Positions 6,294 through 31,740 of a stretch of 43,879 nucleotides of DNA are shown piece after piece. The notes under the pieces are model-generated. The model was not told the origin of the DNA, did no database searches, and saw only the letters and a list, made by a program, of their open reading frames with translations. Position 1 is the first letter of the stretch. The number at the start of each line of letters is the position of its first letter. Origin of the DNA: a virus; IMG/VR virus record IMGVR_UViG_3300046011_008672, positions 1 to 43,879 of that record. The stretch is one strand, 5' to 3'. Both the position numbers and the translations under genes were made by a program.

Positions 6294-6452
6294 ATGCGTT
6301 GGACTGGAGGATATGTGAGCAGAGATTACCCAATAACTAAATGTCCCAAGTGCGGCAGCCAAAACTTTGAACGGATTACTATTAAGCTGAGACCTATCAT
6401 TATTCACGGGATCAAGTGTTACCACTGCGGCTATGAGGGAGGTAAACAATGA
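6294..6452 (+). CDS. Small zinc-ribbon protein
   Basis: A 52-codon frame ending at 6452. It contains CPKCG, then after about 22 residues CYHCG, which is a classic two-knuckle zinc ribbon. A GTG at 6315 preceded by GGAGG at 6306-6310 is an alternative start giving 45 residues. The stop overlaps the ATG of the first DGR target (ATGA at 6449), so the two may be translationally coupled. It is probably a small DNA- or RNA-binding regulator. Confidence 0.5.
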   Translation: MRWTGGYVSRDYPITKCPKCGSQNFERITIKLRPIIIHGIKCYHCGYEGGKQ

Positions 6453-7189
6453 TACATAGCAAGACCTGCCTAAATCAAATAAGGGAAACTGACAAGTGTA
6501 TATGTGGTGCATGTGTGGGCCCTAACAACAGAAAGGAAAATCTAATGCAACCAATCGCAACCGTTATTAACAACAACCAACCAAGCTGGACCAACATTAT
6601 TGAGACGGCCCCCAATGTAACCCTTGAGGTAGGCACACAACTGTTTCTAGCTGAAGATTGCAAGAAAAAAAATGTGGCAGATCTGCCACAAATCGGCAGC
6701 GTCTTAGGCGGTGGCTTCTTCGGCGGTGAAATGATCATCGCTGGACAGCGTTATGCCCTAATTGTCGCCCCTAAATCTGAAGGCGAAAAGATGGAGCTGG
6801 AATACAAATCAAACGATCGCAGCACAGCTGACGGTACTGACAGCGACGATGACGGCCTGATCAACACCAACCTCATAAACGATGAAAACCACCCTGCAGC
6901 ACGCTTCTGCCGGTCACTCACTGTCGGAGGCCATGACGACTGGTACCTACCCTCACGTGATGAGCTGATGATGTTGTGGCGCAACCTGGGCCCACGCCGA
7001 AAAAATGTTCCAGAACTTTTCCGTGAGGATGCCACAGAAGCGTTTAACACTGACTGGTACTGGTCCAGCACCGAACTCGCCCAGTACTCAAGCGATGCCT
7101 GGATCGTGGGTTTCTTCAATGGCACCCAGGGCAACTACGATAAGGACTACGATTGTGGAGTCCGGGCAGTCCGCAGAATCCAAATTTAA
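6449..7189 (+). CDS. DGR1 target protein 1 (DUF1566 / C-type-lectin fold)
   Basis: A 246-residue protein. Residues of about 85-246 match the DUF1566 (Lcl C-terminal) pattern: YALIVAPKSEGE, a DGTDSDDDGLINT acidic loop, HPAARFCRSL, DDWYLPSRDEL, YWSSTE and a GVRAVRR C-terminus. DUF1566 domains adopt a C-type-lectin-like fold that serves as a DGR variable scaffold. Residues 210-243 are the variable repeat. The N-terminal 75 residues, with a C-rich CICGAC motif, are absent from the paralogue downstream. No signal peptide is visible. The start at 6449 has GGGAGG 6 nt upstream. An internal ATG at 6545 is an alternative. Confidence 0.88.
   Translation: MIHSKTCLNQIRETDKCICGACVGPNNRKENLMQPIATVINNNQPSWTNIIETAPNVTLEVGTQLFLAEDCKKKNVADLPQIGSVLGGGFFGGEMIIAGQRYALIVAPKSEGEKMELEYKSNDRSTADGTDSDDDGLINTNLINDENHPAARFCRSLTVGGHDDWYLPSRDELMMLWRNLGPRRKNVPELFREDATEAFNTDWYWSSTELAQYSSDAWIVGFFNGTQGNYDKDYDCGVRAVRRIQI
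7078..7177 (+). repeat. DGR1 variable repeat 1 (VR1)
   Basis: This 100-bp stretch aligns without gaps to the template at 8312-8411. I count 12 differences and all fall on template adenines (A to G, T or C). The final 27 bp (7151-7177) are identical and form the GC-rich initiation-of-homing segment. The repeat encodes residues 210-243 of the upstream DUF1566 target. Confidence 0.95.
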
Positions 7190-7225
7190 CAATTTAACCA
7201 TTTATCAATTTAGGGAGGTGCCGTC

Positions 7226-7750
7226 ATGGCAAAGAAAGTAGCAGTACCCCAGATAGGTGCAGCATTCGGTGGTGGGTTTTACGTAGGCAGCATGGAACTT
7301 GATGGCGTCAAATATGCCCTGGTGGTTTCACCAAAAGCCCAGGGTGAGAAGATGGGGCTGCAATACAAAAAGAGCAAGCTCAGCACTGCTGATGGTGCTG
7401 ACGCAGACGATGATGGCTTTTACAACAGCTGCCTGCTGGATAATGCCAACCATCCTGCAGCACACTTCTGTATCAGTCTTCAGATCGGTGAATATGATGA
7501 CTGGTACCTGCCTTCCCGTGATGAGCTGATGCTGATCTGGATGGCCCTGGGGCCAAACCGCAACAAAATCCCTGATCTGTTCAAGGCCGGTGCTGCAGAA
7601 GCGCTTGAGGGAAAATGGTACTGGTCCAGCACTGAATTCGCCCAGTACTCGGACGATGCCTGGATCGTGGGTTTCACCAATGGCGGCCAGGACTACTACG
7701 ATAAGGGCTACGATTGTGGAGTCCGGGCAGTCCGCAGATTAAAACTTTAA
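7226..7750 (+). CDS. DGR1 target protein 2 (DUF1566 / C-type-lectin fold)
   Basis: A 174-residue paralogue of the preceding target, consisting of little more than the DUF1566 domain: GGGFYVGSMEL, YALVVSPKAQGEK, an acidic DGADADDDG loop, HPAAHFC, DDWYLPSRDEL, YWSSTEF and GVRAVRR. Residues 138-171 are variable repeat 2. AGGGAGGTG lies about 8 nt before the ATG. The 36-bp spacer after target 1 resembles the spacer after this gene, so the duplication included flanking DNA. No signal peptide or membrane segment is seen. Confidence 0.88.
   Translation: MAKKVAVPQIGAAFGGGFYVGSMELDGVKYALVVSPKAQGEKMGLQYKKSKLSTADGADADDDGFYNSCLLDNANHPAAHFCISLQIGEYDDWYLPSRDELMLIWMALGPNRNKIPDLFKAGAAEALEGKWYWSSTEFAQYSDDAWIVGFTNGGQDYYDKGYDCGVRAVRRLKL
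7639..7738 (+). repeat. DGR1 variable repeat 2 (VR2)
   Basis: This 100-bp stretch aligns without gaps to the template at 8312-8411. It has 14 differences, all at template adenines, including one silent TCA to TCG. The last 27 bp (7712-7738) match exactly. Five variable codons carry the same substitution as VR1 (template codons 3, 6, 20, 21 and 24, counting the GCC at 8314 as codon 1). Confidence 0.95.
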
Positions 7751-7789
7751 CTATTTAACTATTTACCAATTTCAGACAGGAGCAACACC

Positions 7790-8143
7790 ATGGCCCTGGC
7801 CTCAACACTCCCCATATACCGAGTTACCTACGAGCTGCTGCAGGTAGTCACCCGCATAACCAAAGATATGCCACGGGACTACAAGCAATCACTAGGCAAC
7901 AAGATTCGTGAGGAATGTGTTGAGCTGACCGTGTTGATCTACCGGGCAAACTGTTCCCGTGAAAAGCGTCCACACATTGAAGCTCTGCAAGAACATCTGC
8001 AAGTGGCAACGCTTTTGATCAGGCTGTCAAAGGATATGCGGCTGATCAGCACGGGGCAGTTTGCCCAGACTATCCAACTAACTGACCAGATCGGACGGCA
8101 GGCATCCGGTTGGTTTAAATCCGCATCGTCGCCTGCTGCATAG
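7790..8143 (+). CDS. avd: DGR1 accessory variability determinant (Avd)
   Basis: A 117-residue, almost entirely helical, basic protein between target 2 and the template repeat, which is the position of Avd in most DGRs. Its pattern (an N-terminal YRVTYELLQVVTRITKDMPR helix, then KIREECVELTVLIYRA and HLQVATLLIRLSKDMRLIS) fits the four-helix-bundle Avd family. This family forms a pentameric barrel, binds the reverse transcriptase and template RNA, and is needed for mutagenic retrohoming. AGGAG precedes the ATG. The following 168 bp before the template has no convincing gene and probably belongs to the DGR RNA. Confidence 0.88.
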   Translation: MALASTLPIYRVTYELLQVVTRITKDMPRDYKQSLGNKIREECVELTVLIYRANCSREKRPHIEALQEHLQVATLLIRLSKDMRLISTGQFAQTIQLTDQIGRQASGWFKSASSPAA

Positions 8144-8311
8144 CCGTCATGGCGGCTATGCCTGTGCGAAATAATCTGGTCGTGCCCCTGGGGAATGCCC
8201 CACGGTTATGCGCCGGCAACGAAACCAGCAGGAAAGCCTGCAAGGTCGTGGCGCAGTTTCATAATGGATCGGTACCGCCTTCTGTTGTGCAACGTGATCA
8301 GCACGACATAA

Positions 8312-8411
8312 CGCCCAGAACTCAAACAATGCCTGGATCGTGGGTTTCAACAATGGCAACCAGAACAACAACAATAAGAACAACGATTGTGGAGTCCGGG
8401 CAGTCCGCAGA
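8312..8411 (+). repeat. DGR1 template repeat (TR1)
   Basis: The adenine-rich, non-variable template for VR1 and VR2. Read in the target frame it has 12 AAC/AAT codons, the codon type that can yield many amino acids without creating stops when A is mutated. It ends at the shared 27-bp segment 8385-8411, and the target frame then meets TAA at 8415-8417. The region 8144-8421 between avd and the RT is the expected DGR template RNA. A GCAGG/CCTGC hairpin with loop AAAG lies at 8228-8241 upstream of it. Confidence 0.95.
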
Positions 8412-8421
8412 TCATAACGAT

Positions 8422-9534
8422 GTGGATGTAACGGTTGATGAACTGCTCTGCGCCTATTACGACTGCCGTAGACGCAAGCGCAACACCATCAACGCATTGC
8501 GGTTTGAAACCAATTTAGAAAGCAACATCATGGGCCTGTACCGGGAACTGGTAGACGGCAGCTATCGCCCCGGTACATCCATCTGCTTTGTTGTCACCAG
8601 ACCTAAGCCGCGCGAGGTATGGGCTGCAGACTTCCGTGACAGGGTTGTGCACCATCTGCTTTACAACCGTATTGCAGATCGTTTCCATAACTCGTTCATG
8701 GCTGATAGCTGCGCCTGCATACCAGGAAGAGGCACGATGTACGGAGCAAAGCGGCTTGAACACAAAATCAGAAGCATCACACAAAACTGGTCACGGAAAG
8801 CCTATTACCTGAAGCTGGATATAGCCAACTTCTTTGTCAGCATCAACAAGAACATCCTGCATGATCTGCTGGCCAAGAAAATAACTGAACCGTGGGTCAT
8901 GTGGCTGGCCGAAACAATCCTTTTTCATGATCCACGGCAGGATGTAAAAATTAAGGGCAGCCGGGGACTACTACAACTAATTCCAAAACACAAGAGCCTG
9001 TTCAGTCAACCGACCCACCTGGGTCTTCCGATCGGCAACCTCAGTAGCCAGTTCTTTGCCAACGTCTACATGGATGCACTTGATCAGCACGTAAAACACC
9101 AGGTTAAGGCACAGCATTACATCAGATACGTAGATGACATGATTCTGCTGCACGAAGATCCGGCCTGGCTTAACAGCGCTACTACAGAAATAGGAACTTT
9201 TGCGTCGACCAAATTGGGACTCAAACTCAACCCGAGTAAAACCATCATCCAACCTATTAACCGTGGGGTTGATTTTGTTGGCCAAGTCATCAAGCCCTGG
9301 AGAAGGATTATGAGAAGAAGTCTACTAGACAATGCAACAGAGTCCATCATCAGTAAAAACAGTGAAGACCTGATGATGAGCGCCAACAGTTATTTAGGGC
9401 TACTCAGACAGTCCACTCGCAGCCACCATGCCCGTGCACGGCTGGCAAGGATAGCAATCGTCAAGGGGCATTGTGTGGATGGCGGGTTCAGGAAGATTTT
9501 CAGAAAAGGGCAAAAGCAAGGAATGCAATTATGA
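8422..9534 (+). CDS. DGR1 reverse transcriptase
   Basis: A DGR-type reverse transcriptase of about 370 residues from the GTG at 8422. Motifs include RDRVVHHLL, YLKLDIANFFVSI, GLPIGNLSSQ at about 201-210 and the catalytic YVDD at 236-239. IGxxxSQ in place of QGxxxSP is diagnostic of DGR RTs, which copy the template RNA with errors at adenines. The same frame is open back to ATG codons at 8353, 8329 and 8149, but those would translate the template region out of its target frame, and none has a good ribosome binding site. The true start is therefore uncertain. There is no maturase or endonuclease domain, so it is not a group II intron. Confidence 0.93.
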   Translation: MDVTVDELLCAYYDCRRRKRNTINALRFETNLESNIMGLYRELVDGSYRPGTSICFVVTRPKPREVWAADFRDRVVHHLLYNRIADRFHNSFMADSCACIPGRGTMYGAKRLEHKIRSITQNWSRKAYYLKLDIANFFVSINKNILHDLLAKKITEPWVMWLAETILFHDPRQDVKIKGSRGLLQLIPKHKSLFSQPTHLGLPIGNLSSQFFANVYMDALDQHVKHQVKAQHYIRYVDDMILLHEDPAWLNSATTEIGTFASTKLGLKLNPSKTIIQPINRGVDFVGQVIKPWRRIMRRSLLDNATESIISKNSEDLMMSANSYLGLLRQSTRSHHARARLARIAIVKGHCVDGGFRKIFRKGQKQGMQL

Positions 9535-9797
9535 TTCAACTACCGACCATGATCAAAATCAACGAAAAGCATACTCGTGCTGTCAATAAATATGACTGGT
9601 CTGGTTATAGCACAGCAGACATGAAACAGGCTTTGTTCGGAGAATTGATTGAACTGTACGATGCCTATTTTGAAAATAAGATCCACGGCCCCCACGGGGT
9701 AATTGATGAGGCCTATGATGCCATCGCCGTGCTGTTGCGCATTATTGAAACACTGGAGGGGGAAAAGAATGCAAGCAATAAAAACCCTACTGTTTGA
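9531..9797 (+). CDS. MazG-like nucleotide pyrophosphohydrolase
   Basis: An 88-residue helical protein whose ATG overlaps the RT stop (ATGA). The pattern FGELIELYDAY...H...EAYDAIAVLLRIIETLEG resembles the EExxE...ExxD metal-binding helices of small MazG/phosphoribosyl-ATP pyrophosphohydrolase-like proteins, which hydrolyse (d)NTPs. The assignment is moderate because the protein is short and the acidic motif incomplete. Overlap with the DGR1 reverse transcriptase suggests co-translation. Confidence 0.5.
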   Translation: MIQLPTMIKINEKHTRAVNKYDWSGYSTADMKQALFGELIELYDAYFENKIHGPHGVIDEAYDAIAVLLRIIETLEGEKNASNKNPTV

Positions 9798-9942
9798 CCC
9801 CCGCGTCTTCAGCTACATCATCATGGGGCTCTACCTGCTCAATGCCCTGCGATGGGCCTATGAACGCAAACCGGCTGATGTCTGCTACTGGCTCTCAGCC
9901 CTGGCAATCACCGCAACCGTAACCTTTGGGTATAAACACTAA
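9769..9942 (+). CDS. Small membrane protein
   Basis: A 57-residue protein with two hydrophobic segments (around residues 15-27 and 39-53) separated by a charged RWAYERKPAD loop. GGAGGGGG is placed about 7 nt before the ATG at 9769. The start lies within the end of the MazG-like gene, and the stop overlaps the next start. It is a possible holin or membrane accessory; no family is recognised. Confidence 0.5.
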   Translation: MQAIKTLLFDPRVFSYIIMGLYLLNALRWAYERKPADVCYWLSALAITATVTFGYKH

Positions 9943-10601
9943 TGTCAACCACCCACGCCACAGACCTGCAGGCCATCCTTGACGCTGCTATTGCCACCGC
10001 CAAGGCTAACCCCACTGCTGCCAACATCAGCACAGTGGAAAAGGCCCGTAAAGCACTGGATGACTACAGCAATCAGGGTGGTGCTGCTGGCGAAAAATTC
10101 AAGACTCAGGCAGCGGCTCTGCTCTATCTGCAGCGCACCTACAAAATCGAGAAAAGCAAACTCTCTGCAGATGTCCAGTCTGGCAAAGTACCCCGCAAAG
10201 ATGGCACCTTCTCTGCCAAGGATCTGGACTACTACGCCAACGCCGTACGGCTGGATCCTAAAACCAGTGAACCACAACAAAGCAGTGATGGCCTGTCAGA
10301 CGACATCAAGCGCGAGACCGCCCGTAAACTCAGAATAAACAACGAAGAACGTGAAGGACTGCTGATAAACCGGCTGGAAGAAGAGGCAAGGGACGCGAAG
10401 CTCTGGTCAGCTGTTAAATCAGATATTGAAAACCACGCCCCTGTCATTGTGCATGAACTAATAAACCGGCTGCTGCCCATTATCGAAGACGATGAACTGC
10501 GTGCCAGGGTGTTGTCACTAACCCATGAACTGCGGCTGGTATATGAGGATGCCATTGCAGATATCTTTGACCGTTACGCAAAGATAGAGGGCGAAGAGTG
10601 A
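9942..10601 (+). CDS. Probable terminase small subunit
   Basis: A 219-residue protein immediately upstream of, and overlapping, the large terminase gene. The centre (KDLDYYANAVRLDPK) and the following charged helical region (KRETARKLRINNEEREGLLINRLEEEARD) recall the coiled-coil half of Nu1-like small subunits, which recognise the cos or pac site and recruit the large subunit. Family assignment rests mainly on position and this helical pattern. Confidence 0.65.
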   Translation: MSTTHATDLQAILDAAIATAKANPTAANISTVEKARKALDDYSNQGGAAGEKFKTQAAALLYLQRTYKIEKSKLSADVQSGKVPRKDGTFSAKDLDYYANAVRLDPKTSEPQQSSDGLSDDIKRETARKLRINNEEREGLLINRLEEEARDAKLWSAVKSDIENHAPVIVHELINRLLPIIEDDELRARVLSLTHELRLVYEDAIADIFDRYAKIEGEE

Positions 10602-12475
10602 GCATAGCAACCCTGCCCATACCTTCGGCGCCAGCGCCCAGGGCAGCAGAACGCAAGGTCTTTGCCAAGCGTAAGCGTTTGCCAGGGCCCCAGTGGTTTG
10701 AGCGCAATATCAACGTACCGGTCGGCAGCCGTCAAGGCCTCTACCGCAACCAGAACAACCCTGCCATGTGGGGCGTGCTGGATTGGGCCACCCGCAGCCA
10801 TGTTCGTACAGTGGTACTGGCCAAAGGCATCCAGATCGGAGGCACCCTTGCCTTTTACGGCCTGCTGCTGCGCGAAGGTGAATACACCAGCGACAATGCC
10901 TTAATAGTTGTTGCTGATGAACGCACCCTTAAAAAACTGATCAAAAAGCGGCTGCATAAGATGATAGACAGCAGCCCGTCCCTGTCAGCTATTAAATCAG
11001 CAAACCCTGATGATACCACCATGTATAGCGTTACCCTGGGTAACGGCTTCACCATTGAAGGCGGCTGGGCATCATCAGAAGTATCAGTATCGTCTGAATC
11101 CTACCGGGTAGTTATTCTGGATGAGATCAGTAAATACAAAACCCGTGGCAACATTGAGGATGCAAAAAGCCGCACCACCGTCTTTCCGGACACACACAAG
11201 ATTTGGATACTCTCCAGCCCCGGAATAGACACCGATGATCCGGAAAACCGTGATCCCCTGATGGTAGAGGCTGAAGCATGTGACGTCATGCTTGAATTCC
11301 ACGCCAAATGCCCTGATTGCGGCAAAGAACAGGTCATGACCTTTGACCGGTTCGGCTGGCCCGGACAAGTTAACCTTGAAGGACAGACAGAGGCAGACCC
11401 CAAGGCAATCCGCCGCAACCGCTCTGCCTGGTACCAGTGTGAACACTGCAACAGCCGTTGGAACGACTACAAGCGGGATAAAGCCATACTGTCAGCCATG
11501 AAAACCGGCTGGCAGCCAACCGATGGCTGTGACATCGAGCGCCCCCAGTCAGTCTACTTCCACTTTCCGGCCTGGCTGTCTCCCTATGTCAGCCTGTCAG
11601 AAGTAGCGGCCAGCTGGCTGGAAGCCCAGGGGGATGAAGAAAAACTGCGCAAGTGGCACAACCGCTTTGCCGGGGTAAGCCACAGATCAGAAAAGAAAGC
11701 TCTGCCCCACTCAACCATTATGAGGCTCAAGGATGATCGACCTGAAGGATTGGTGCCTTCCGTGCCCATTGCTGCCATCACCTGTATTGCTGACATGCAG
11801 AAGCGCGGTTTTTGGTACAAGGTCACTGCTTGGGGTTATGGTCTCCAGCAGGAAAGCTGGCTACTGAAAGCCGGTTTTATTGATTCATTTGACGCCCTTA
11901 AACAGATCATGTTTGAAAGCCAATACCAGGATATATCCGGCAACAACTACAACGTAACCCTGCGCGGTATGGATTCCGGCGGTGGCGAAGGCGAAGAACA
12001 CCAGGATCTGTCCCGTACTGCCGAGGCATACCTGTTTGCAGCTGCAAACCCTGGGGTATTGCTCTTTAAAGGTCGCCGCCGTCTTTCCCGCAGCTTCAAC
12101 GTAACCGATATAGACCGACTGCCGGGCACTAACAAGCCGCTGCCGGGATCGGCCAAGCTCTACACCCTCAACACCACTTTCTTTAAAGACAAGCTAGCTG
12201 CCAAACTGCTGGTATCCTCTGACGATCCGGGAGCCTATCACCTGCATAAAGACACTGATGAAGACTTTGCAAAGCAGATGTGCTCAGAAACCAAGAACGA
12301 ACAAGGCGTGTGGGTATGTCCAAAGGGCAAAGACAACCACTACTTCGACTGTTCAAGCATGGAAATGGCTTTGATAGAGATCTCCCAAGTAAAATTCTGG
12401 CCAGAGCCTGGCCAGATTCCGGCAAATCAGCCCAGGAAGACACAACAACACAGAAACGATAACAGGAGGTGGTAA
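10598..12475 (+). CDS. Terminase large subunit, GpA family
   Basis: A 625-residue protein with the lambda gpA-like organisation. An N-terminal ATPase has a degenerate P-loop region near LAKGIQIGGTLAFYG, a VIVADE segment and a Walker B in YRVVILDEISKYK. A zinc-binding insert (CPDCG...CEHCNSRW) lies at about residues 240-290. The C-terminal nuclease has GMDSGGGEGEEHQD and DNHYFDCSSMEMAL. It packages DNA into the prohead and cuts at packaging sites, working with the portal. The stop lies just before the next ribosome binding site, AGGAGGT. Confidence 0.92.
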   Translation: MSIATLPIPSAPAPRAAERKVFAKRKRLPGPQWFERNINVPVGSRQGLYRNQNNPAMWGVLDWATRSHVRTVVLAKGIQIGGTLAFYGLLLREGEYTSDNALIVVADERTLKKLIKKRLHKMIDSSPSLSAIKSANPDDTTMYSVTLGNGFTIEGGWASSEVSVSSESYRVVILDEISKYKTRGNIEDAKSRTTVFPDTHKIWILSSPGIDTDDPENRDPLMVEAEACDVMLEFHAKCPDCGKEQVMTFDRFGWPGQVNLEGQTEADPKAIRRNRSAWYQCEHCNSRWNDYKRDKAILSAMKTGWQPTDGCDIERPQSVYFHFPAWLSPYVSLSEVAASWLEAQGDEEKLRKWHNRFAGVSHRSEKKALPHSTIMRLKDDRPEGLVPSVPIAAITCIADMQKRGFWYKVTAWGYGLQQESWLLKAGFIDSFDALKQIMFESQYQDISGNNYNVTLRGMDSGGGEGEEHQDLSRTAEAYLFAAANPGVLLFKGRRRLSRSFNVTDIDRLPGTNKPLPGSAKLYTLNTTFFKDKLAAKLLVSSDDPGAYHLHKDTDEDFAKQMCSETKNEQGVWVCPKGKDNHYFDCSSMEMALIEISQVKFWPEPGQIPANQPRKTQQHRNDNRRW

Positions 12476-12477
12476 AC

Positions 12478-12678
12478 ATGGCAAAAGCGAAGGAAGCACC
12501 GGATACGGCAGACATTCTAGTGGGCATGAAGGCTATCTGCAATTATCTGCGCAGGAGTGAAGTAACGGTGCTTAAGTGGCGAAAAGAATATGATGATTTC
12601 CCGGTTAAAAAAGACGGCCAGCTAACAGCCACCAGATCAGCTCTCCAGAAGTGGATTTATGCAACATTTGGAGGGTAG
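12478..12678 (+). CDS. Small winged-helix DNA-binding protein
   Basis: A 66-residue protein from the ATG at 12478, preceded by AGGAGGT at 12464-12470. The sequence GMKAICNYLRRSEVTVLKWRKEYDDFPV...ALQKWI is a MerR/Nu1-like winged-helix DNA-recognition domain. In lambda such a domain sits at the N-terminus of the small terminase Nu1. Here it is a free-standing protein directly after the large subunit. It may contribute packaging-site recognition or regulate late genes; both are inference. Confidence 0.6.
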   Translation: MAKAKEAPDTADILVGMKAICNYLRRSEVTVLKWRKEYDDFPVKKDGQLTATRSALQKWIYATFGG

Positions 12679-12692
12679 ATCTGGGGCACGAG

Positions 12693-12717
12693 CAAGGCGG
12701 CTTAACTAGCCGCCTTG
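12693..12717 (+). other. Hairpin after the terminase operon
   Basis: A perfect 9-bp inverted repeat (CAAGGCGGC / GCCGCCTTG) with a 7-nt loop lies 15 bp after the HTH gene. No T-tract follows, so it may be an RNA-stabilising or regulatory structure rather than a simple terminator. The rest of the gap up to 12903 has no gene. Its last part (about 12820-12890) is A/C-rich with several near-repeats of CAAAAACACCC. Confidence 0.5.
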
Positions 12718-12903
12718 GTTAAGCTTGTAGGTTCGCACGAATTTCGTGAAGTAGTCGAGGATTCGGAAGACAGACGCCTTGAAAAACAAAGGAAAACACC
12801 GCCAGTTTTTAGACTGTCAACCCCCAAAAACACCCATAAAATACCTCAAAAACACCCAAAAGATACCCCAAAAAAGCCGTTAATTTTACGTTACATTAAA
12901 AAC

Positions 12904-12939
12904 AACCCCTTATGATGCTTACCATCATCGGGGGTTTTT
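12904..12939 (+). terminator. Rho-independent terminator before gpW
   Basis: A two-part stem, AACCCC/GGGGTT outside and ATGATG/CATCAT inside, with a short internal mismatch, is followed by TTTTT. It ends 2 bp before the ATG at 12942. A terminator abutting a start codon is unusual and could instead control initiation of the gpW-like gene by occluding its ribosome binding region. Confidence 0.65.
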
Positions 12940-12941
12940 AA

Positions 12942-13181
12942 ATGGCGCTTTACACACTGGCAGAACTTGAGACCGAAATAACCACCTGGAAGGCTGCGCT
13001 TTCCAGACTGAACCATCAGGCCGTGGTGAAGATCGGTGACAACGAGATCCATGCCCGCGACATTGATAAAGTCCGCTCTCACCTGCAATGGCTTGATCAG
13101 CAGCGTGATTCTGCCTTAGTCTGCTCAACCCCTGCCCCTGCTGTTGGTCGCACCTATGCCAGAACCGGACGGAACCGCTAA
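12942..13181 (+). CDS. gpW-like head-tail joining protein
   Basis: A 79-residue basic protein located between terminase and portal, exactly where lambda gpW lies. The pattern of an N-terminal helix (LAELETEITTWKAALSRL), a short hairpin (VVKIGDNEIHARDI) and a second helix (VRSHLQWLDQQRDS) matches the gpW fold. gpW plugs the portal after packaging and provides the tail attachment surface. The stop and the next start share TAATG. Confidence 0.75.
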   Translation: MALYTLAELETEITTWKAALSRLNHQAVVKIGDNEIHARDIDKVRSHLQWLDQQRDSALVCSTPAPAVGRTYARTGRNR

Positions 13182-14746
13182 TGGGTATCATCACCAACAT
13201 AGAGCGGGGGCTTGATCGTGCCATTGGCCTGTTTTCCCCTGGCTCTGAAGTCAAGCGGATTCTGCTGCGTCAACAGGCAGAAAAAGCCCGTATGTATGCC
13301 GCTGCCAAAACAACCCGCTCCACTGGTGGCTGGTCGCCTGTTGGTCAGGATGTCAATACCCTGATCCGTTCCAGCTCTGTTCAAATCCGCAACCGCTCCC
13401 GTCAGCTTGTCCGTGACTTCGCTTATTTTGCCCGTGCCGTTGATATTCTGGTTGATTATACCGTGGGAACCGGCGTGCAACTGCAAAGCCGTGTGACCCG
13501 TGGCGTTGATGCTGAGACGGGAAAGAGCCGCCTGCATACCGCAAAAATTAACGAGATTGAAACCGCTTGGTGGCGCTGGATGGAAGAGGCTGATGCCTCA
13601 GGCCGTTTGCACTATCACGAGCTTGAACAACTGGCAAAACGGCAGGATGTAGAATCAGGTGAGTTTCTGTTTGTAAAGGTGAATCTGCCGGACAAGAACC
13701 GCTTTTTGCCCTTTGCCCTTATCCCCTATGAATCTGACTGGCTTTGTTCCGATTACATTAATCCGCAATCCGGCAACGTGGTTGATCAAGGTATTGAAGC
13801 TGATCCGGCAACAGGCCGGGTTATCGCCTATCACTTCAGGGTGCCTGATGGTTTTAACAACCTGACCGGCGGACAGAAAAGCCAGCGGATTCTGGCTGAA
13901 AACGTGATCCACGGATTCAAGACACTGCGCCCTGGACAGATACGGGGAATCTCTCCCTTTACTACAGCAATCCTGCTGGCTGATGACCTGCACGAATACT
14001 TAAACGCAGAGATTGACGCTGCCAAACATGCTGCAAAGCGTTTGGCTGTTGTCACCACCAGCGATATTGCCGGATTCCAGAACATGCGAGCCACAACCGA
14101 TGCCGAAACCGGAAAGCGGATTGAAGAGCTTGAAAACGCCTTTATCGAATACCTGCGCCCTGGTGAAACTATCACCTTTGACGGCAGCAACCGACCCGGC
14201 GACACCTTTGAACCATTTACCCGCCTGGTGTTGCGGATGGTAGCGGTATCAACCGGCGTTACATACGAACTGCTGACCGGAGATTATAACGGGATCAACT
14301 ACAGCAACTTGCGCGGTATCCGCAACGATTTTATGAAGATCATTGCACCGCTGCAGCAACGGCATATTCGCCAGTTCTGCCAGCCGGTATTCAGGGCGTT
14401 TCTTGATTCTGCAGTGCAATCAGGCCGTATCAGCTTGCCTGGATATTTCAGCAACCCTTACCCTTGGCAAGAATGTACCTGGCAGCCGCCCGGTGTTGAG
14501 AGCATTGATCCGCTGCGTGAAGGTAAAGCCTACATCGACCAGATCAACAGCCTGCTGAGAAGCCCGCAAGAGATCACCGCCAGCCGTGGCCGTGATTACG
14601 AAGAGGTGCTGAACGAGATTGCAGAAGCCAAACGGATGGCAGATGCACGGGGCTTGTCACCTGCTGATGTAAAAACCGCTCTGGCAAATGCACCCTCTGC
14701 CGTAGATCCGGCAACCAACGGAAAAGGAGCAACCACAAATGACTGA
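13181..14746 (+). CDS. Portal protein, lambda gpB family
   Basis: A 521-residue portal protein. Characteristic stretches include RQLVRDFAYFARAVDILVDYTVGTG near the N-terminus, GEFLFVK, GISPFTTAILLADDLHEYL and TGVTYELLTGDYNGINYSNLR near residue 370. The dodecameric portal forms the DNA entry channel and binds terminase and gpW. Its 3' end overlaps the capsid gene by 8 bp. Confidence 0.93.
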   Translation: MGIITNIERGLDRAIGLFSPGSEVKRILLRQQAEKARMYAAAKTTRSTGGWSPVGQDVNTLIRSSSVQIRNRSRQLVRDFAYFARAVDILVDYTVGTGVQLQSRVTRGVDAETGKSRLHTAKINEIETAWWRWMEEADASGRLHYHELEQLAKRQDVESGEFLFVKVNLPDKNRFLPFALIPYESDWLCSDYINPQSGNVVDQGIEADPATGRVIAYHFRVPDGFNNLTGGQKSQRILAENVIHGFKTLRPGQIRGISPFTTAILLADDLHEYLNAEIDAAKHAAKRLAVVTTSDIAGFQNMRATTDAETGKRIEELENAFIEYLRPGETITFDGSNRPGDTFEPFTRLVLRMVAVSTGVTYELLTGDYNGINYSNLRGIRNDFMKIIAPLQQRHIRQFCQPVFRAFLDSAVQSGRISLPGYFSNPYPWQECTWQPPGVESIDPLREGKAYIDQINSLLRSPQEITASRGRDYEEVLNEIAEAKRMADARGLSPADVKTALANAPSAVDPATNGKGATTND

Positions 14747-16685: not shown

Positions 16686-16701
16686 TAGCACTCACCCCTG
16701 A

Positions 16702-16726: not shown

Positions 16727-16753
16727 AACTAAAACAACTAAGGAGAAAATCCA

Positions 16754-18505: not shown

Positions 18506-18508
18506 ATC

Positions 18509-19541: not shown

Positions 19542-19560
19542 ACAAAAGGAGGGCTAAATA

Positions 19561-20523: not shown

Positions 20524-20537
20524 AAGGAAGGATAGCC

Positions 20538-23872: not shown

Positions 23873-23875
23873 CCC

Positions 23876-24487
23876 ATGAGACCATTACCCCCTGCACTTT
23901 TACGGGCTGCCAACCGGATGGATCAGCCAGATCCGTGGCTGGTGCTGCTGGATATAGCCATTGAGGGCGAAGACACCATGTACCTGGTCAACAATAACGA
24001 AGATGTTGTTTTTGATGGCCGCACCTATATTGCCTTTGCCTTTACGGTAGATCAGCCCAAAGAGAGCAGCAAGGGTGAAATCCCCAGCATACAACTGCAG
24101 GTGGCCAACGCTACCCGCACCCTGCAGACTTATGTTGAACAGTATCAGGGTGGGGTCGGTTCATCGGTTACCATCCGCATTGTAAATGCCGGTTGTCTAG
24201 CAGAAGACTATGCAGAACTGACAACAGTAATGCAGGTGCTGGCCTGCAGGTGTACGGCACAATGGGTGACCTTTACCCTGGGTGCTATAAACCCGCTTAA
24301 CCGCAAGTTTCCGCCTGATCAATACATTGCCATGCACTGCCGCTTTACCTTTAAGGGGTACCACTGCGGGTATGCTGGAGCTGCCACCACCTGCAGCCGC
24401 ACCCTTGATAATTGTCAGCTGCTTGGCAACAGCAGCCGTTTTGGCGGGTTTCCTGGACTGGATGGAAGGGGAATTAGACTGGTATGA
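23876..24487 (+). CDS. Minor tail protein L-like (probable Fe-S protein)
   Basis: A 203-residue tail tip protein. The N-terminal two thirds are beta. The C-terminal domain has the spaced cysteines CRFTFKGYHCGY...TTCSRTLDNC characteristic of gpL, whose lambda homologue binds an iron-sulphur cluster, followed by RFGGFPG. The stop overlaps the next start. Confidence 0.88.
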   Translation: MRPLPPALLRAANRMDQPDPWLVLLDIAIEGEDTMYLVNNNEDVVFDGRTYIAFAFTVDQPKESSKGEIPSIQLQVANATRTLQTYVEQYQGGVGSSVTIRIVNAGCLAEDYAELTTVMQVLACRCTAQWVTFTLGAINPLNRKFPPDQYIAMHCRFTFKGYHCGYAGAATTCSRTLDNCQLLGNSSRFGGFPGLDGRGIRLV

Positions 24488-24882
24488 CAAGCCCCCCCAA
24501 TTACATTGATTTACTGGGCAAGCCGTTTGAATACAGTGGCCGTGGCCCTGAAGCCTTTGATTGCTACGGGCTGGCAGTAGAACTGTACCGGCGTGCTGGC
24601 ATTACCCTGCCAGACTATGCCAGTGATCCTGATCCAGCCTTTCAGGGTAATGGTTTCCTGCACGGCGCAGAGCATTACTTTGATCGTGTGGCCCAGCCTG
24701 AGCTGTTAGATATTATACTGTTTCAGGTAATGCCCCGCTACATTACCCATTGTGGTGTCTATGTGGGTCATGGCCGCTTTGTACATATTCTGCAAAAAAC
24801 AAGTGTCACGTGTGAAGAGCTGGCAAGCCCGGTCTGGCAGCACCGCCAGCGGGGTGTATATCGGTTCAGGGGGCTACTATGA
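24484..24882 (+). CDS. NlpC/P60 tail tip peptidase (gpK-like)
   Basis: A 132-residue NlpC/P60 domain protein. The catalytic Cys lies in FDCYGLAVEL (about residue 27) and the His in THCGVYVGHGRF (about residue 85). It probably hydrolyses peptidoglycan cross-links during DNA entry. The N-terminal JAB-like half seen in lambda gpK is absent, leaving only the peptidase. Confidence 0.88.
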   Translation: MTSPPNYIDLLGKPFEYSGRGPEAFDCYGLAVELYRRAGITLPDYASDPDPAFQGNGFLHGAEHYFDRVAQPELLDIILFQVMPRYITHCGVYVGHGRFVHILQKTSVTCEELASPVWQHRQRGVYRFRGLL

Positions 24883-27800
24883 GCGGTCAAACCATTACCC
24901 TGACCAAAGTATATAACCCGCTTGACAGATCTGATCAGGACATTATCCAGTGGCAGTATCAGCCAGGCTCTACAGTAGCTGATCTGCTTGATAATACCGG
25001 AACAATAATCACTAAGCGTGAAGGCCACCAGCTGGTGGTGTCCGTTAATGGCCAGGTAATACCCGCTGATCAGTATGACCAGACGCACCTGGTGCCAGGG
25101 CAATGCGTTACCCTTGTGCCGGTACTGACTGGCGGCAGTACAGACAGTAAAAACGTTCTGCGCACTGTTGGCCTGGTGGTACTTGCGGTTATCGCAACAG
25201 TGGTTTCGGTGTTTGTACCTGCCCTATGGCCAGTAACCGGCTTTTTATGGAAGATGGCCTTTTACTCAGCAATAATGACAGTTGGCATGGCCATTTATGG
25301 TGCTTTTGCTGGTGGTGGTTCAGCTCAAGCTCCTTCCCTTAATGGTTATCAGGGGGCAGACCAATCCAACAGCTACAGCTGGAACCCACAGACAACCCAA
25401 CAGCAAGGCATACCAATACCGTGGTATTACGGCACCTGCAAGGTAACCGGAAACGTTATAGGTGTATGGCGTGAAAGTATTGGCAACCAGCAGTATCTGA
25501 ATGCCCTGATATGCGTTGGCGATGGCGTACTATCCGGCATTACCGATATTATGCTTAATGACCAGCCGCTGGCCAATTATACCGGTATTGAGCTGCACAC
25601 CCGTCTGGGGTATCTGAGTCAGGCGGTTATACCCAACTTTGGTGATACAGTCACAGAATACGCCCAGGGCACAAAAGTAAATTACGGGACGCCTGTTTTA
25701 TACACCACCATTGGCGCTGATTTTGACGCCCTGGAAGTGGAAGCCGGTTTTCCAAACGGGCTTTATTACTATGATGATTACGGTAACCTGCAGCCATTGG
25801 CGGTAAACTTCCAGATAAGTGTCAGGAAGCTGGGAACAACACCATGGACAATTATTACCAGGCAGCCCAGCACCACAAAAGTATCAGCTGGCGGTTATTG
25901 GTCAGCCGGTCAGTGGGTAACTGAATATTATGATGAATACGGGAGCCCTGGCCCTGCTACCTGGATAGAATATGCAAACGGTGGTACCAACCCTAACAGT
26001 TATTATGACGGTCAGAGTTATGATGGTTGGAGAGCCTGGCGCTGGATAGGCGACCCCATTCGTGTTGTAGATATCATGCTTGATTATGTGACGGCGTATG
26101 CTGGCCAATCAGGAGCCATACGCTACAACTACCGTGCTAATGGCCTTGAGCAAGGGCAGTACGAAATTCAGGTCAGCAGATTATCCACTGATTACACAGA
26201 CACCAGACATGGCGATGAATTTTATCTGATGGCGGTTCGTGAGGTTGTGCTTGATGACTTCACGTATCCAGGCACCGCCTTAATAGGGTTGAGGGCCTTA
26301 GCTACAGACCAGCTGTCAGGCAGTTTTTCATTCTCTTGCCGCACCACAGGCAAGATGTGCCGAGTGCATACTGGTGCCGCCTGGACAGTGGCAGCCACCA
26401 GCAACCCTGCCTGGGTCTGTTTTGATATCCTGACCCAGCCGGTTTTTGACAACAGCTTTAATGTGCTGGAATACCGCGCCCATAATCCAGATAACCTTGA
26501 TCTGGCACGATGGGTAGAATGGGCGCAGTATTGTGATGATCTGGTACCGGATGGATCAGGGGGAACTGAAAAGCGTTTAACCTATAATGGCGGCTTTGAT
26601 AGCTCACAAAGCATGTGGGATGCAGCCCTTAGTGTTGCCAGAACCGGAAGGGCGACCCCGTACTGGAGAGGCACAACCGTGACGGTTGCCATTGACAAGC
26701 CATCCAGCCCGGTGGCGCTTATCAGTGTTGGCAACATCGGCCTTGATTCATTTGAGGAAACGTTTCTTGGCATGGATGACCGTGCCGGTTCAATAGAAGC
26801 CGATTTTCTTAATATTGAAAAAGACCTTGACCGCGACAAGTTCACTGTAATTAACCCAGATGCACCACCTGAATGGGGATCTGCCAGCCTTCCCATGCAA
26901 GGGGTTATACGGCCCAGCGAGGTCTGGCGGCACTGCAGGTACCACCTTGCCACCACACAGAACCTTACGCGCGTAGTAACTGTGCAGATGGATACCGATA
27001 GTATCGCTTTTACGTTGGGCGACATCATACAAGTGCAGCATGATGTGCCTATGTGGGGCGAAGGTGGCAGAATTGTATCAGCCACCACCACAACGCTGGT
27101 GCTGGATAAGCAGGTGACCATTGCCGTAGACAAAACCTACAGCATAATGCTGCGCCTGCTTGATGGCACCATTGTAGAGCGAACAGTGGTAACCCCGCCA
27201 GGCACAACCGACACCATCACTATCAGTACCCCTTTTACTGCAGCACCAGACCCGTTTGACGTGTACGCCTTTGGAGAAGTTGAAAGCAGTGTAAAGCCTA
27301 TGCGTGTTGTGGGTATTGACTCTGCCGGTGATCTGAAGCGTAAAATTACCCTGACTGACTACAACGAGACAGTATACAACGCCGACCTGCTGCAGCCGGT
27401 GCTGCCAACGGTTAATTATAGTGGTCTGGGGCTGCCTGCTGTGCAAGGCCTAATTCTTTCAGAGCGACTGGTGGCTGGCTTATCAGGGGCTATTACTTCC
27501 GTAATTGACGTGTCCTGGCACCCGGTAAACGATTCGCTAACAAAGTATGTAGAAATATTTATAAACGGCGCATCATATAGTAAATATGAAATAAACATAA
27601 ATACGGCGGCAATACCTGTATCTACAGGCATTGCCGCCGTAACTGCCCGCACCGTTGGATATGCTGGAAATGCGCAATCTTTATCTGTGGCCACCAGCGC
27701 CAGCATACTTGTCCTCGGCCTATCCGCCCCACCACCAGACGTAACCGGTACACGCATCAACTGCATAGACACCCAGGCGCACCTATCCTGGGCGCCGGTT

Positions 27801-28775
27801 TCAGACATTGGCCTTTCACACTACACCGTAAAATTCAGCCCGGCGGTTGATGGTGCCAGCTGGTCCAGCTCTGTTGCCCTGGTGCCGCAAGTATCTGGCA
27901 ACAGCATAACCGTACCGGCCATGGTTGGCAGCTACCTGATTAAAGCCATACGCTACGGCGGCAGCGAAAGCACCAACGCTGCAATGGTAACCAGCTCTAT
28001 TGCCGGAATTGCCGGGCTTAATGCTGTTGAACTGGTTGATCCCGCCCCTGTCTGGTCTGGCACTCACGCCAGCACCACCGTTGTAGATGGCGTACTAAGA
28101 CTAGCCAGTGCCGATACCTTGTCAGACTGGACAAGCCTTGCCGCTGTTAAATCACTGGCCTACGGGCTTAATGGCTACGCGCAATCAGGCAGCTATCAAT
28201 CTGACACAGTAATTGATCTGGGTCTGATCTATACATCCCGCCTGACAGCCCAGATGCAGGCCACTGGAAACAATACGCTTAACGTGATGTCGGGATGGTC
28301 TACGCTTTCATCAGTGGTGCGGCTGTCTGGTGCAGAACCAGGGGAATGGAACGCGGTGCTGCAGGTAAGCACCACGCAAGAAGATCCGGCACTTGATAAC
28401 TGGTCTGCCTGGCAGGAATTTATTGTCGGTGATTATTCTGCCCGTGCTTTCCGTTTCAGGTTGCTGCTGTATTCGTACCGCCCGGAGATCCTGGTGCAGA
28501 TCCCTGCCCTGTCCATCAATATTGATATGCCAGACCGGATTATCAGCGCCCAAGATATTACCTGCCCCGCTGCAGGCCTGCGGATTGATTTTGTGCCGGG
28601 GTTCAGATCGCTGAAAGCGCTGGCCATAGACGGACAGGATATGCTTGCCGGAGATTATAAAACGGTTACCGGTAAAGACGAAACCGGCTACACCCTACGA
28701 TTTTTTAACAGCGCCGGAACCGGCGTTGAGCGCACTTTTGACGCAATAGCAACCGGATACGGACAGGAGGTTTAA
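24879..28775 (+). CDS. Tail tip host-specificity protein (gpJ-like)
   Basis: A 1298-residue central tail fibre/tip protein. The first 80 residues are a ubiquitin-like, gpI-type domain, followed by a hydrophobic double helix (about residues 95-145) as in gpI. The gpJ body starts near QQGIPIPWYYGTCKVTGNVI, with baseplate-hub domains and fibronectin-type-III-like repeats after about residue 830. It anchors the downstream tail fibre and binds the host receptor region. The gpI part appears to be fused to gpJ. Confidence 0.88.
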   Translation: MSGQTITLTKVYNPLDRSDQDIIQWQYQPGSTVADLLDNTGTIITKREGHQLVVSVNGQVIPADQYDQTHLVPGQCVTLVPVLTGGSTDSKNVLRTVGLVVLAVIATVVSVFVPALWPVTGFLWKMAFYSAIMTVGMAIYGAFAGGGSAQAPSLNGYQGADQSNSYSWNPQTTQQQGIPIPWYYGTCKVTGNVIGVWRESIGNQQYLNALICVGDGVLSGITDIMLNDQPLANYTGIELHTRLGYLSQAVIPNFGDTVTEYAQGTKVNYGTPVLYTTIGADFDALEVEAGFPNGLYYYDDYGNLQPLAVNFQISVRKLGTTPWTIITRQPSTTKVSAGGYWSAGQWVTEYYDEYGSPGPATWIEYANGGTNPNSYYDGQSYDGWRAWRWIGDPIRVVDIMLDYVTAYAGQSGAIRYNYRANGLEQGQYEIQVSRLSTDYTDTRHGDEFYLMAVREVVLDDFTYPGTALIGLRALATDQLSGSFSFSCRTTGKMCRVHTGAAWTVAATSNPAWVCFDILTQPVFDNSFNVLEYRAHNPDNLDLARWVEWAQYCDDLVPDGSGGTEKRLTYNGGFDSSQSMWDAALSVARTGRATPYWRGTTVTVAIDKPSSPVALISVGNIGLDSFEETFLGMDDRAGSIEADFLNIEKDLDRDKFTVINPDAPPEWGSASLPMQGVIRPSEVWRHCRYHLATTQNLTRVVTVQMDTDSIAFTLGDIIQVQHDVPMWGEGGRIVSATTTTLVLDKQVTIAVDKTYSIMLRLLDGTIVERTVVTPPGTTDTITISTPFTAAPDPFDVYAFGEVESSVKPMRVVGIDSAGDLKRKITLTDYNETVYNADLLQPVLPTVNYSGLGLPAVQGLILSERLVAGLSGAITSVIDVSWHPVNDSLTKYVEIFINGASYSKYEININTAAIPVSTGIAAVTARTVGYAGNAQSLSVATSASILVLGLSAPPPDVTGTRINCIDTQAHLSWAPVSDIGLSHYTVKFSPAVDGASWSSSVALVPQVSGNSITVPAMVGSYLIKAIRYGGSESTNAAMVTSSIAGIAGLNAVELVDPAPVWSGTHASTTVVDGVLRLASADTLSDWTSLAAVKSLAYGLNGYAQSGSYQSDTVIDLGLIYTSRLTAQMQATGNNTLNVMSGWSTLSSVVRLSGAEPGEWNAVLQVSTTQEDPALDNWSAWQEFIVGDYSARAFRFRLLLYSYRPEILVQIPALSINIDMPDRIISAQDITCPAAGLRIDFVPGFRSLKALAIDGQDMLAGDYKTVTGKDETGYTLRFFNSAGTGVERTFDAIATGYGQEV

Positions 28776-28778
28776 CAG

Positions 28779-30119
28779 ATGAGCCAGTTTGATTTTGGTA
28801 CCATAAACCCTGATTTGCAATCAGGTACGCAGTTAGCCAGCGACATGAACAGCTGGCGTGACGCGCTGCACAGCATGCACCGGGGCAGTAGTAGGCCGTC
28901 ATATATTGTGGCAGGCATGATGTGGATTGATGATACCACCAATCCCTGGCTGATTAAGATGTACAGCGGCACGACTGACACGGTTCTGGCCAGCTTTAAC
29001 ACTACAACCGGGGTGTTTGGCGGTTCTGCCAACGGCCTGGCCACCCTGGGCAGTGACGGTAAAGTACCCTCCGGGCAACTGCCGGATATGACGCCTGACC
29101 CTTACGCCTTCTTTAAAGCCTCCTCCGCCTCAGTAGCCTTCACCAAAACCGCAGCCGCTACCGCCAGCGTCAAGGCCGGAACAAAGATAATGGTAGGCAC
29201 CACCCTTGTTACCTTTGCCATTGCCACCGCAATTATCATGCCCACGCTGACAGGCGGCACAGACTACGCCATTTACGCCTGTGATGATGGAACATGCCGC
29301 GCTGATGCATCGTTTACCAACCCTACCGGATACACCACAGTCAACAGCCGGTTGATAGGCGGTTTCCATTACGGGCTTGTGGCTGCTGGCACTACTGTGG
29401 CGGGTGGATCATTCGCCACCACAGGCAACGGCATGATCTGGACGCAGACCGATGTTGACCGTATTGCAGGTATCAACGAATTTTCGTTATGGGACCTGAA
29501 GTGGCGTCCGCAGTGTGACCCTAAGGGCATGGCCTTGGTTTCTGGTCGTATCTGGGTTGATATTTATTTCTGTGGCACCAACCACACCACCAACGGCACC
29601 AGCAAGGCAGGCACCGACATTGCCAGCGGAACGGTGCTACCTAAAAAGCCGCTTGAATTTGGCGGCAACGGCACCACAACGTATGCCGCGCCTAAATGGT
29701 GGGATTTTGTCGAGATCGTCAACGCCTACAAAAAGCGGTTAATGCGTGAGCAAGAATTTGTTCTGGCAGCCTTTGGCGTAACTGAAAATCAAAGCATAGA
29801 TGCTGTGGCGTCAACTTATCCAACCACCCAGCGCAATGCTGGCTACACCAGCAAATATGGCATAGAGCAAGCCAGCGGTCATCACTGGACATGGGGTGAT
29901 GATACCGGCCAATATGGTGAATCGTGGGCGTATGCAGACGTTAACGGCGGTCGTGGTCAGCTCTATACGACCAACTACACCACAAAAGTAATTCTAGGCG
30001 GCGGTCGTACGAGCGGAGCCTATTCCGGCTCCCGTTGCTCGTCTTGGGTCTACGACCCGTGGAGCGTCGATTGGTACTTTGGCGTTCGGGCCGCCTGTGA
30101 CCACCTGGTTTTGGTTTAG
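28779..30119 (+). CDS. DGR2 target: tail fibre / receptor-binding protein
   Basis: A 446-residue protein directly after gpJ, with GGAGG before the ATG. The N-terminal part (RPSYIVAGMMWIDDTTNPW, then NGLATLGSDGKVPSGQLP) is a fibre-attachment motif common in phage fibres. The C-terminal 150 residues resemble the C-type-lectin-like domain of DGR receptor-binding proteins (HHWTWGDDTGQYGESWAYAD, then RCSSW and YFGVRAACDH). Residues 407-441 are the variable repeat. Changing these residues should alter receptor choice, as for Mtd of Bordetella phage BPP-1. Confidence 0.9.
   Translation: MSQFDFGTINPDLQSGTQLASDMNSWRDALHSMHRGSSRPSYIVAGMMWIDDTTNPWLIKMYSGTTDTVLASFNTTTGVFGGSANGLATLGSDGKVPSGQLPDMTPDPYAFFKASSASVAFTKTAAATASVKAGTKIMVGTTLVTFAIATAIIMPTLTGGTDYAIYACDDGTCRADASFTNPTGYTTVNSRLIGGFHYGLVAAGTTVAGGSFATTGNGMIWTQTDVDRIAGINEFSLWDLKWRPQCDPKGMALVSGRIWVDIYFCGTNHTTNGTSKAGTDIASGTVLPKKPLEFGGNGTTTYAAPKWWDFVEIVNAYKKRLMREQEFVLAAFGVTENQSIDAVASTYPTTQRNAGYTSKYGIEQASGHHWTWGDDTGQYGESWAYADVNGGRGQLYTTNYTTKVILGGGRTSGAYSGSRCSSWVYDPWSVDWYFGVRAACDHLVLV
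29998..30101 (+). repeat. DGR2 variable repeat (VR3)
   Basis: This 104-bp segment at the 3' end of the tail fibre gene aligns without gaps to the template at 30502-30605. There are 12 differences at template adenines and one at a thymine (T to G at 30053). The last 21 bp (30081-30101) are identical and GC-rich, acting as the homing initiation segment. Similarity stops at 30102, just before the gene end. Confidence 0.95.
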
Positions 30120-30134
30120 TCGAGCGAAAGCGAG

Positions 30135-30488
30135 ATGTCTGGCCATGATCCACACAGGGCTTTGTCGATAGTTGAGCGTTATGAAGGTGCGCTCAACTAT
30201 CTGTACCCGATTTTGCTGAATGTCAGCCACAAGCATAGGGTGCTGCGTGACGAAACCCTGCGGGTGATGCTGGCGCAGGTAGGGCTTTTTAACGATGCGG
30301 CAAAAAGTAATCAGGTTTCACGCCTGCATATAGCCGATGCAGGTTTAGCAACAATCAGAGGATTTCTTCGCCTGTTGGCTGATCCATCAAGAAAGCTGTT
30401 GTCGCGCCGCCAGTATGAGGTTGCCAGTGTTCATCTGGCAGAAACAGGCGCGATGTTGGGCGGATGGATCAAGGCGAAGGATAGGTAG
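30135..30488 (+). CDS. avd: DGR2 accessory variability determinant (Avd)
   Basis: A 117-residue helical basic protein between the target and TR2. Helices such as ALSIVERYEGALNYLYPIL, RDETLRVMLAQVGLFNDA and QYEVASVHLAETGAMLGGWI fit the Avd four-helix-bundle family. It shares little obvious sequence with the DGR1 Avd beyond length and helical pattern, so the two DGRs are not recent copies. The stop at 30488 is only 13 bp from TR2. Confidence 0.82.
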   Translation: MSGHDPHRALSIVERYEGALNYLYPILLNVSHKHRVLRDETLRVMLAQVGLFNDAAKSNQVSRLHIADAGLATIRGFLRLLADPSRKLLSRRQYEVASVHLAETGAMLGGWIKAKDR

Positions 30489-30501
30489 AGATGGGGCAAA
30501 A

Positions 30502-30605
30502 GCGGCAATCGTACGAACGGAGCCTATTCCGGCTCCCGTTGCTCGAATTGGAACAACTACCCGTGGAACGTCAATTGGAACATTGGCGTTCGGGCCGCCT
30601 GTGAC
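30502..30605 (+). repeat. DGR2 template repeat (TR2)
   Basis: The non-variable template for VR3, with 8 AAC/AAT codons in the target frame against S, G, V, Y and D codons in VR3. It ends with the 21-bp identical segment 30585-30605. It lies in the 277-bp gap between avd and the RT gene and was presumably transcribed as part of the DGR RNA. The rest of the gap (30606-30765) shows no convincing gene. Confidence 0.95.
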
Positions 30606-30765
30606 GACAGAACAATTTTACCATGCTGCAACAGCTACGGCGAAGGCAGCAGACCTTATATGTGGTCAGCCCGTCTCTGCCTGCTTAGGCAAACACACTA
30701 CACGGTCTGGAGAGCGGCGAGTAGGAAGCATCGAAACCCGCGCCAGCAATAAAGGATTTAACCCA

Positions 30766-31740
30766 ATGGGTAAGCGATATAAAAACCTCTATCACCAGAT
30801 ATGCCACCCTGACACCCTTTGGGCTGCCTATCAAAGGGCCGCTGCCGGTAAGCGCCGCAGCATGGGATATCTGCATTTTAAACAGCAAGAGGCGGCGAAC
30901 ATTGCCAGACTATCAGCCAGCCTGAAAGATGGCAGCTATCAACCAGGAGAGCAACGCACCTTTACTGTGTACGAACCAAAGAAAAGACAAATATCAGCCC
31001 TGCCGTTTTCAGATCGTGTTGTACAGCACGCTCTGGTTGCAGTGATCGAGCCTATATTTGACCGGGCTTTTCTTCCACAAAGCTACGCCTGCAGAGTAAA
31101 CAAAGGCACCCACCGTGGAGCCATTAAAGCGCAGGCCACCATGCGGCGGATGCAACAGCAGGGGCAAGGCTGGTTTCTAAAAACCGACTTCGCAGGCTAC
31201 TTCAAAAATATAAACCTTGAAGTTCTACACAAGGAGATCCGCCGCAAGATCAGCTGCCCGGCAACCCTTGATCTTATCACCAAGTTTCACAGCAACACCG
31301 GAACCGGACTGCCTATTGGTAACCTTACCAGCCAACTGTTTGCCAATGTGTACGGCAACATTCTTGACAAGTATCTGGTGCATGAGCTGGGTCGCAGCAA
31401 CTTTATCCGCTACATGGACGATGCAGTTATCTTTAGCCACAGCAGGCATTACCTTGAAACGCTGCGTTATGGCCTGAAGTGGTTCTGTAAATCGGTGATG
31501 AAGCTGGACTTCAGCCGCTGGATGATTGCGCCTTTTCAGCAGGGCTTGAACTTCCTTGGCTACCGTATCTGGCCAACCCATAAACTACTGCGCCGATCAT
31601 CTGTTGCGCGGGCAAAGAAAACCATCAAACGCCTACAAGGGCAGCCTGACAAACTCTGTAAATTTATAGCCAGCTGGCGCGGTCACGCACAGTGGGCAGA
31701 CAGCCGCAACCTATTACACGCATTGGAGGTGTACGCATGA
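30766..31740 (+). CDS. DGR2 reverse transcriptase
   Basis: A 324-residue DGR reverse transcriptase from the ATG at 30766, which has AAAGGA about 9 nt upstream. Motifs are LYHQICHPDTLWAAYQRA at the N-terminus, SDRVVQHAL, FLKTDFAGYFKNI, GLPIGNLTSQ at 181-190 and catalytic YMDD at 216-219. It differs from the DGR1 enzyme in length and in much of its sequence. The frame is open upstream into the template, but starts there would not be sensible. The stop overlaps the next start. Confidence 0.93.
   Translation: MGKRYKNLYHQICHPDTLWAAYQRAAAGKRRSMGYLHFKQQEAANIARLSASLKDGSYQPGEQRTFTVYEPKKRQISALPFSDRVVQHALVAVIEPIFDRAFLPQSYACRVNKGTHRGAIKAQATMRRMQQQGQGWFLKTDFAGYFKNINLEVLHKEIRRKISCPATLDLITKFHSNTGTGLPIGNLTSQLFANVYGNILDKYLVHELGRSNFIRYMDDAVIFSHSRHYLETLRYGLKWFCKSVMKLDFSRWMIAPFQQGLNFLGYRIWPTHKLLRRSSVARAKKTIKRLQGQPDKLCKFIASWRGHAQWADSRNLLHALEVYA

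Follow-up and report, generated by a model that had tools for sequence, protein, structure and literature searches.

The diversity-generating retroelements (DGRs) described in phages rely on one reverse transcriptase (RT) and one template, even where two targets are served. Their reported frequency is 0.18% of phage genomes and about 1% of a slurry virome (PMC7981956), and viral RT clades 1, 4 and 6 have mostly tail targets, those of clade 3 being mixed (Roux et al., PMC8144416). Bordetella phage BPP-1 carries a single DGR with the order mtd, avd, template repeat (TR) and brt. Burkholderia phage Magia, Shewanella phage QDWS and the Pseudomonas phages Cruim01 and Haboob likewise have one DGR each and no second RT. 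Genomes with several DGRs have been reported for Nanoarchaeota, Bacteroides sp. 1_1_14 and Trichodesmium erythraeum (PMC4372165, PMC3521204, PMC8867640).

Unlike the phages named above, the one analysed here carries two DGRs. Its sequence is an IMG/VR record of 43,879 bases, the whole of which is referred to as the window. By gene content it is a temperate tailed phage, coding for a primase, terminase, portal, head protease, endolysin, tape measure, gpJ-like tail protein, tyrosine integrase and regulators; the gpJ and tape measure genes point to a siphovirus-type tail. Matches to PF00078 reveal two reverse transcriptases. The first-pass annotation had placed two separate cassettes, each with target gene(s), avd, TR and RT, at 6449–9534 (DGR1) and 28779–31740 (DGR2), and both are indeed present there. 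A scan of the whole window, on both strands, for TR/VR-type repeats with mismatches on A in one copy gave exactly three pairs, TR1–VR1, TR1–VR2 and TR2–VR3 (VR, variable repeat), and no sign of a third DGR. The features of the two cassettes, and of the gene preceding the second, are the following.

6545–7189, plus strand: DGR1 target 1, Lcl_C / C-type-lectin-like, carrying VR1 (PF07603, E 7e-14; ORF open from 6449)
7078–7177, plus strand: VR1 (12/12 repeat-core mismatches at TR1 adenines, p 8e-7)
7226–7750, plus strand: DGR1 target 2, Lcl_C / C-type-lectin-like, 174 aa (PF07603, E 3e-12)
7639–7739, plus strand: VR2 (14/14 repeat-core mismatches at TR1 adenines, p 5e-8)
7790–8143, plus strand: avd1 (PF22296, E 2e-16; phrog_3206, E 2e-33)
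8312–8411, plus strand: TR1 (repeat scan, adenine mismatches against VR1 and VR2)
8422–9534, plus strand: RT1, YVDD, 370 aa, GTG start (PF00078, E 2.6e-18; phrog_1423, E 4e-111; type-a clade)
24879–28775, plus strand: gpJ-like tail protein, directly upstream of DGR2 (phrog_31, E 3e-138)
28779–30119, plus strand: DGR2 target, Mtd orthologue, 446 aa (1yu0, E 4.7e-75; PF21916; 46% identity to BPP-1 Mtd in alignment)
29998–30101, plus strand: VR3, at the 3' end of mtd (12/13 repeat-core mismatches at TR2 adenines, p 4e-9)
30120–30135, plus strand: possible degenerate post-VR hairpin TCGAGC-GAAA-GCGAGA, directly after the mtd stop codon (from the sequence)
30135–30488, plus strand: avd2 (PF22296, E 3.5e-23; BPP-1 Avd 4dwl, E 3e-24)
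30502–30605, plus strand: TR2 (repeat scan, adenine mismatches against VR3)
30766–31740, plus strand: RT2, YMDD, 324 aa, ATG start (PF00078; 47.5% identity to BPP-1 bRT (brt); type-b clade)

DGR1 sits between the replication genes and the terminase (10598–12475), outside the tail module, and comprises in order two Lcl_C/C-type-lectin targets, avd1, TR1 and RT1. The frame of target 1 is open from 6449, but the more likely start is the ATG at 6545, with a Shine–Dalgarno sequence at 6533–6538. For target 2, an AlphaFold run with eight input sequences gave a pLDDT of 63, and the 71-sequence model, with a pLDDT of 96, was used. A Foldseek comparison of this model with the PDB returned as top match 8q4e, the C-terminal domain of Legionella Lcl (E 3e-6), with C-type lectins next and weaker. 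Taken together, AlphaFold and Foldseek predict a C-type-lectin fold for the DGR1 target; the variable codons of target 2 lie in its C-terminal part, at residues 141–162. DGR1 combines a DGR-clade RT with intact catalytic motifs, adenine-biased VRs, an Avd, a lectin-fold target and ongoing VR change, and it is of the type, found in proteobacterial phages and prophages, whose targets are small Lcl_C proteins. Upstream of the GTG start, the RT1 frame has no stop codon back to 8149 and takes in TR1, and many relatives have an equally long frame; because the stretch 8149–8421 is open, TR1 could be translated as an N-terminal extension of RT1 if an upstream start were used. In another record (G012, L094), an RT1-type RT at 18337–18998 is spread over two frames, owing to either a frameshift or an assembly error.

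DGR2 begins 4 nt past the end of gpJ and has the order Mtd orthologue, BPP-1-like Avd, TR2 and RT2. Judged by its sequence it is a BPP-1-type cassette, with a brt-clade RT, an Mtd with the VR at its 3' end and an Avd orthologue. The picture of two DGRs drawn in the first-pass annotation holds, although the Mtd/BPP-1 type of the second had been missed. The segment at 30120–30135 folds no better than shuffled sequences; if tandem G–A pairs are counted, it may represent a vestige or variant form of the BPP-1 post-VR hairpin.

The view that two independent DGRs serve two unrelated protein classes is supported by the RT clades, the Avds, the templates and the targets. RT1 and RT2 are 33% identical and differ in length and motif, as had been noted; in an alignment of 17 DGR RTs both retain every invariant position, catalytic aspartates included. 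Placement in an RT tree, which had been proposed as a check, put them in different, well-separated clades of a FastTree phylogeny of 340 RTs, RT1 with Magia and Cruim01 (127 tips, support 0.98) and RT2 with BPP-1 (95 tips, support 0.91); for each, the closest RTs come from other phages, which have a single DGR. BLASTP gave no alignment between Avd1 and Avd2, though PF22296 matches both, in agreement with the earlier opinion that they are not recent copies. The templates are unrelated, as had also been stated, the longest exact match between a TR and a non-cognate VR being 5–7 nt. A recent duplication of one DGR is ruled out by the low RT identity, the separate clades and the lack of an Avd alignment.

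DGR1 is active in nature at VR1, where a second contig gives direct evidence of mutagenic retrohoming. This sibling of the window phage (IMG/VR contig 3300044910_000508) has a gap-free alignment of 18,757 bp with positions 6992–25748. The two differ at 14 sites, every one of them inside VR1 and opposite a TR1 adenine; were 14 changes placed at random, the log10 P for the observed clustering would be about -38. TR1 is identical in the two siblings, as is VR2 (7639–7739), and one of two targets that share a TR can therefore change without the other. No sibling covering DGR2 was found in our collection by protein search and exact 26-mers. The adenine bias between TR2 and VR3 suggests that DGR2 is active in the window phage. 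In a close relative from the RT2 clade, two contigs (L103 and L498) differ at seven VR positions, 7/7 of them opposite TR adenines.

Three other explanations of these data were considered. The window is a metagenome contig, and its continuity is backed by a single sibling contig only, which might suggest a chimera joining two phages. However, this independent contig runs unbroken from 6992 to 25748, that is from DGR1 through the packaging, head and tape measure genes into gpJ, and DGR2 follows at a distance of 4 nt a gpJ that forms one intact frame of 1298 aa from 24879, with a continuous phrog_31 match. A chimeric join is for these reasons extremely improbable, and the existence of three further phages with the same pair, one of them with terminal repeats, also argues against it. 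Alternatively, DGR1 alone could be active and DGR2 a decaying remnant, as the failure to find a sibling with DGR2 and the degeneration of the post-VR3 hairpin relative to BPP-1 might indicate. We regard this as improbable: neither truncation nor loss of conserved residues is seen in RT2, Avd2 and Mtd, the pattern of VR3 mismatches at TR2 adenines is accompanied by no other decay, and the RT2-clade relative shows adenine changes confined to the VR.

The cassettes could also form one functional system, in which a single RT or Avd serves both templates; the first-pass annotation had allowed for such cross-talk, and both RTs do belong to one DGR superfamily and are 33% identical. Yet both cassettes have an intact RT, Avd and TR of their own, the Avds give no alignment and each RT type is found alone in many phages. 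Since the identity of the TRs to the non-cognate VRs extends over at most 7 nt, leaving no usable homology, the template-level part of the proposed cross-talk is unlikely, and a single shared system is very improbable. By far the most probable explanation, in which we have high confidence, is that a temperate phage harbours two DGRs that are autonomous and differ in ancestry, each with its own repeats, the pairing having resulted from cassette exchange.

Such a two-DGR phage is new, each of its DGRs alone being of a known kind, and the pairing is rare but recurrent. RT1 and RT2 readily find each other in sequence searches, and none of the GenBank phage records matched, 115 with RT1 and 154 with RT2 as query, had a second RT place. 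Our IMG/VR sample contained 216 records with DGR-like RTs, 174 of which were at least 20 kb long; it was aimed at these two RT families, and other pairings would therefore be missed. Besides the window, three of the 174 contigs (about 2%) are dual-DGR phages.

G053 (3300013131_000005): RT1-type and RT2-type, separate TR/VR sets; 123-bp direct terminal repeat, circularly complete
G087 (3300029199_000279): RT1-type and RT2-type, separate TR/VR sets
G109 (3300032024_000106): RT1-type and RT2-type, separate TR/VR sets

The search for similar pairs recommended earlier thus yielded three, on unrelated backbones. The expectation of a rare arrangement was borne out by these counts and by the GenBank phages; its recurrence had not been foreseen. 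In all three phages two or three VRs belong to the RT1-type DGR, most of them located in Lcl_C-type proteins of about 200 aa (for one G053 target Pfam gives no match, and the two G109 matches lie below the curated cut-off), and the RT2-type DGR serves an Mtd protein. The RT1-type DGR of G109 serves three VRs, at 47–157 of L426 and at 555–663 and 9182–9296 of L428. The four dual phages share little outside the cassettes, the TerL and portal of the window being 23–25% identical to those of G109 only. All eight RTs of these phages (8/8) are nearest to RTs from records in which no second RT was seen, and the pairs were therefore probably assembled separately, some of these neighbours being fragments or bacterial contigs. 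The nearest neighbours of the RT1-type enzymes are from Gallionella/Sterolibacterium for G053, Rhodospirillales/Magnetospirillum for G087 and Gammaproteobacteria including Pseudomonas for G109, which suggests that the dual phages infect different hosts. The dual share of about 2% is of the same order as the reported DGR frequencies, and no excess of pairing over chance is claimed.

Two further records were rejected as dual phages. G148 has two adjacent RT2-type RTs (L429, 12433–14177) downstream of the only TR/VR set found, possibly a tandem duplication or a split RT; the second RT of G145 fits the whole RVT_1 profile (E 7.7e-47) and was read as a non-DGR kind. As for prophages, profile coordinates from 38 bacterial genomes with RT1-type RTs placed no RT2-type RT near an RT1-type one. 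Polaromonas sp. OV174 (G198 contig 50; L371) has two RVT_1 matches like the RT1 type, at 87001–87663 and 119990–120652; lying about 33 kb apart, they could belong to one prophage with two RTs or to two prophages.

Under the explanation by two autonomous DGRs, RT1 and Avd1 would copy TR1 with adenine errors and the cDNA would retrohome into the two small C-type-lectin targets; RT2, Avd2 and TR2 would likewise diversify the receptor-binding protein of the Mtd type whose gene directly follows gpJ. Each DGR would act on its own repeats only, presumably with no cross-use of RT or Avd, so that tail-tip binding and a second function could vary separately. This second function may be ligand binding by the Lcl_C targets, probably not in the tail. 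The pairing would have been assembled by cassette exchange and probably arose in at least four phage backgrounds. Its occurrence in three other unrelated viruses indicates that two kinds of protein can be randomised separately by one virus, and finding the pair in four unrelated phages suggests that DGR cassettes are mobile modules, more than one of which can accumulate in a genome. It is possible, though we offer it only tentatively, that two hypermutation systems of different clades are kept as a functional pair in some temperate phages, the BPP-1/Mtd type for receptor binding and the other for small non-tail lectins, for example in lysogeny or inter-phage conflict. A dual phage makes it possible to test, within one cell, the specificity of a DGR for its own RNA and Avd, and to test whether tail and non-tail proteins are diversified on separate schedules. 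It also opens to study what the small and widespread Lcl_C proteins targeted by the second DGR type do.

Neither the open-access papers searched, in their main text, nor the GenBank phages with DGR-RT matches included a phage with two DGRs. DGR2 resembles the BPP-1 element in gene order, tail-module position, target, Avd and RT (matches listed above). The window Mtd differs in following a gpJ tail protein and in its N-terminal region; where BPP-1 has a perfect 8-bp post-VR hairpin with GAAA, the hairpin at the same place in the window phage is weak. DGR1 is closest to the elements of Magia, QDWS and Cruim01/Haboob, whose RTs share 54–58% identity with RT1. The neighbourhood of the Magia RT, which as in DGR1 is apart from the tail genes, contains an Avd gene and small proteins with a lectin fold whose annotation marks them as possible targets. 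Like the window phage, the Quimbyvirus and tentaclin phages (nd4, nd12) diversify two functionally different targets (PMC8008677, PMC10743442), but they use one RT and one TR for both, whereas the window has two RTs, two Avds and two TRs, of different clades. The several-DGR genomes of Nanoarchaeota, Bacteroides sp. 1_1_14 and Trichodesmium erythraeum are cellular, unlike that of the window phage, and the RTs of the nanoarchaeon DUSEL4, which are similar to one another, may go back to a single acquisition, whereas those of the window fall in different clades.
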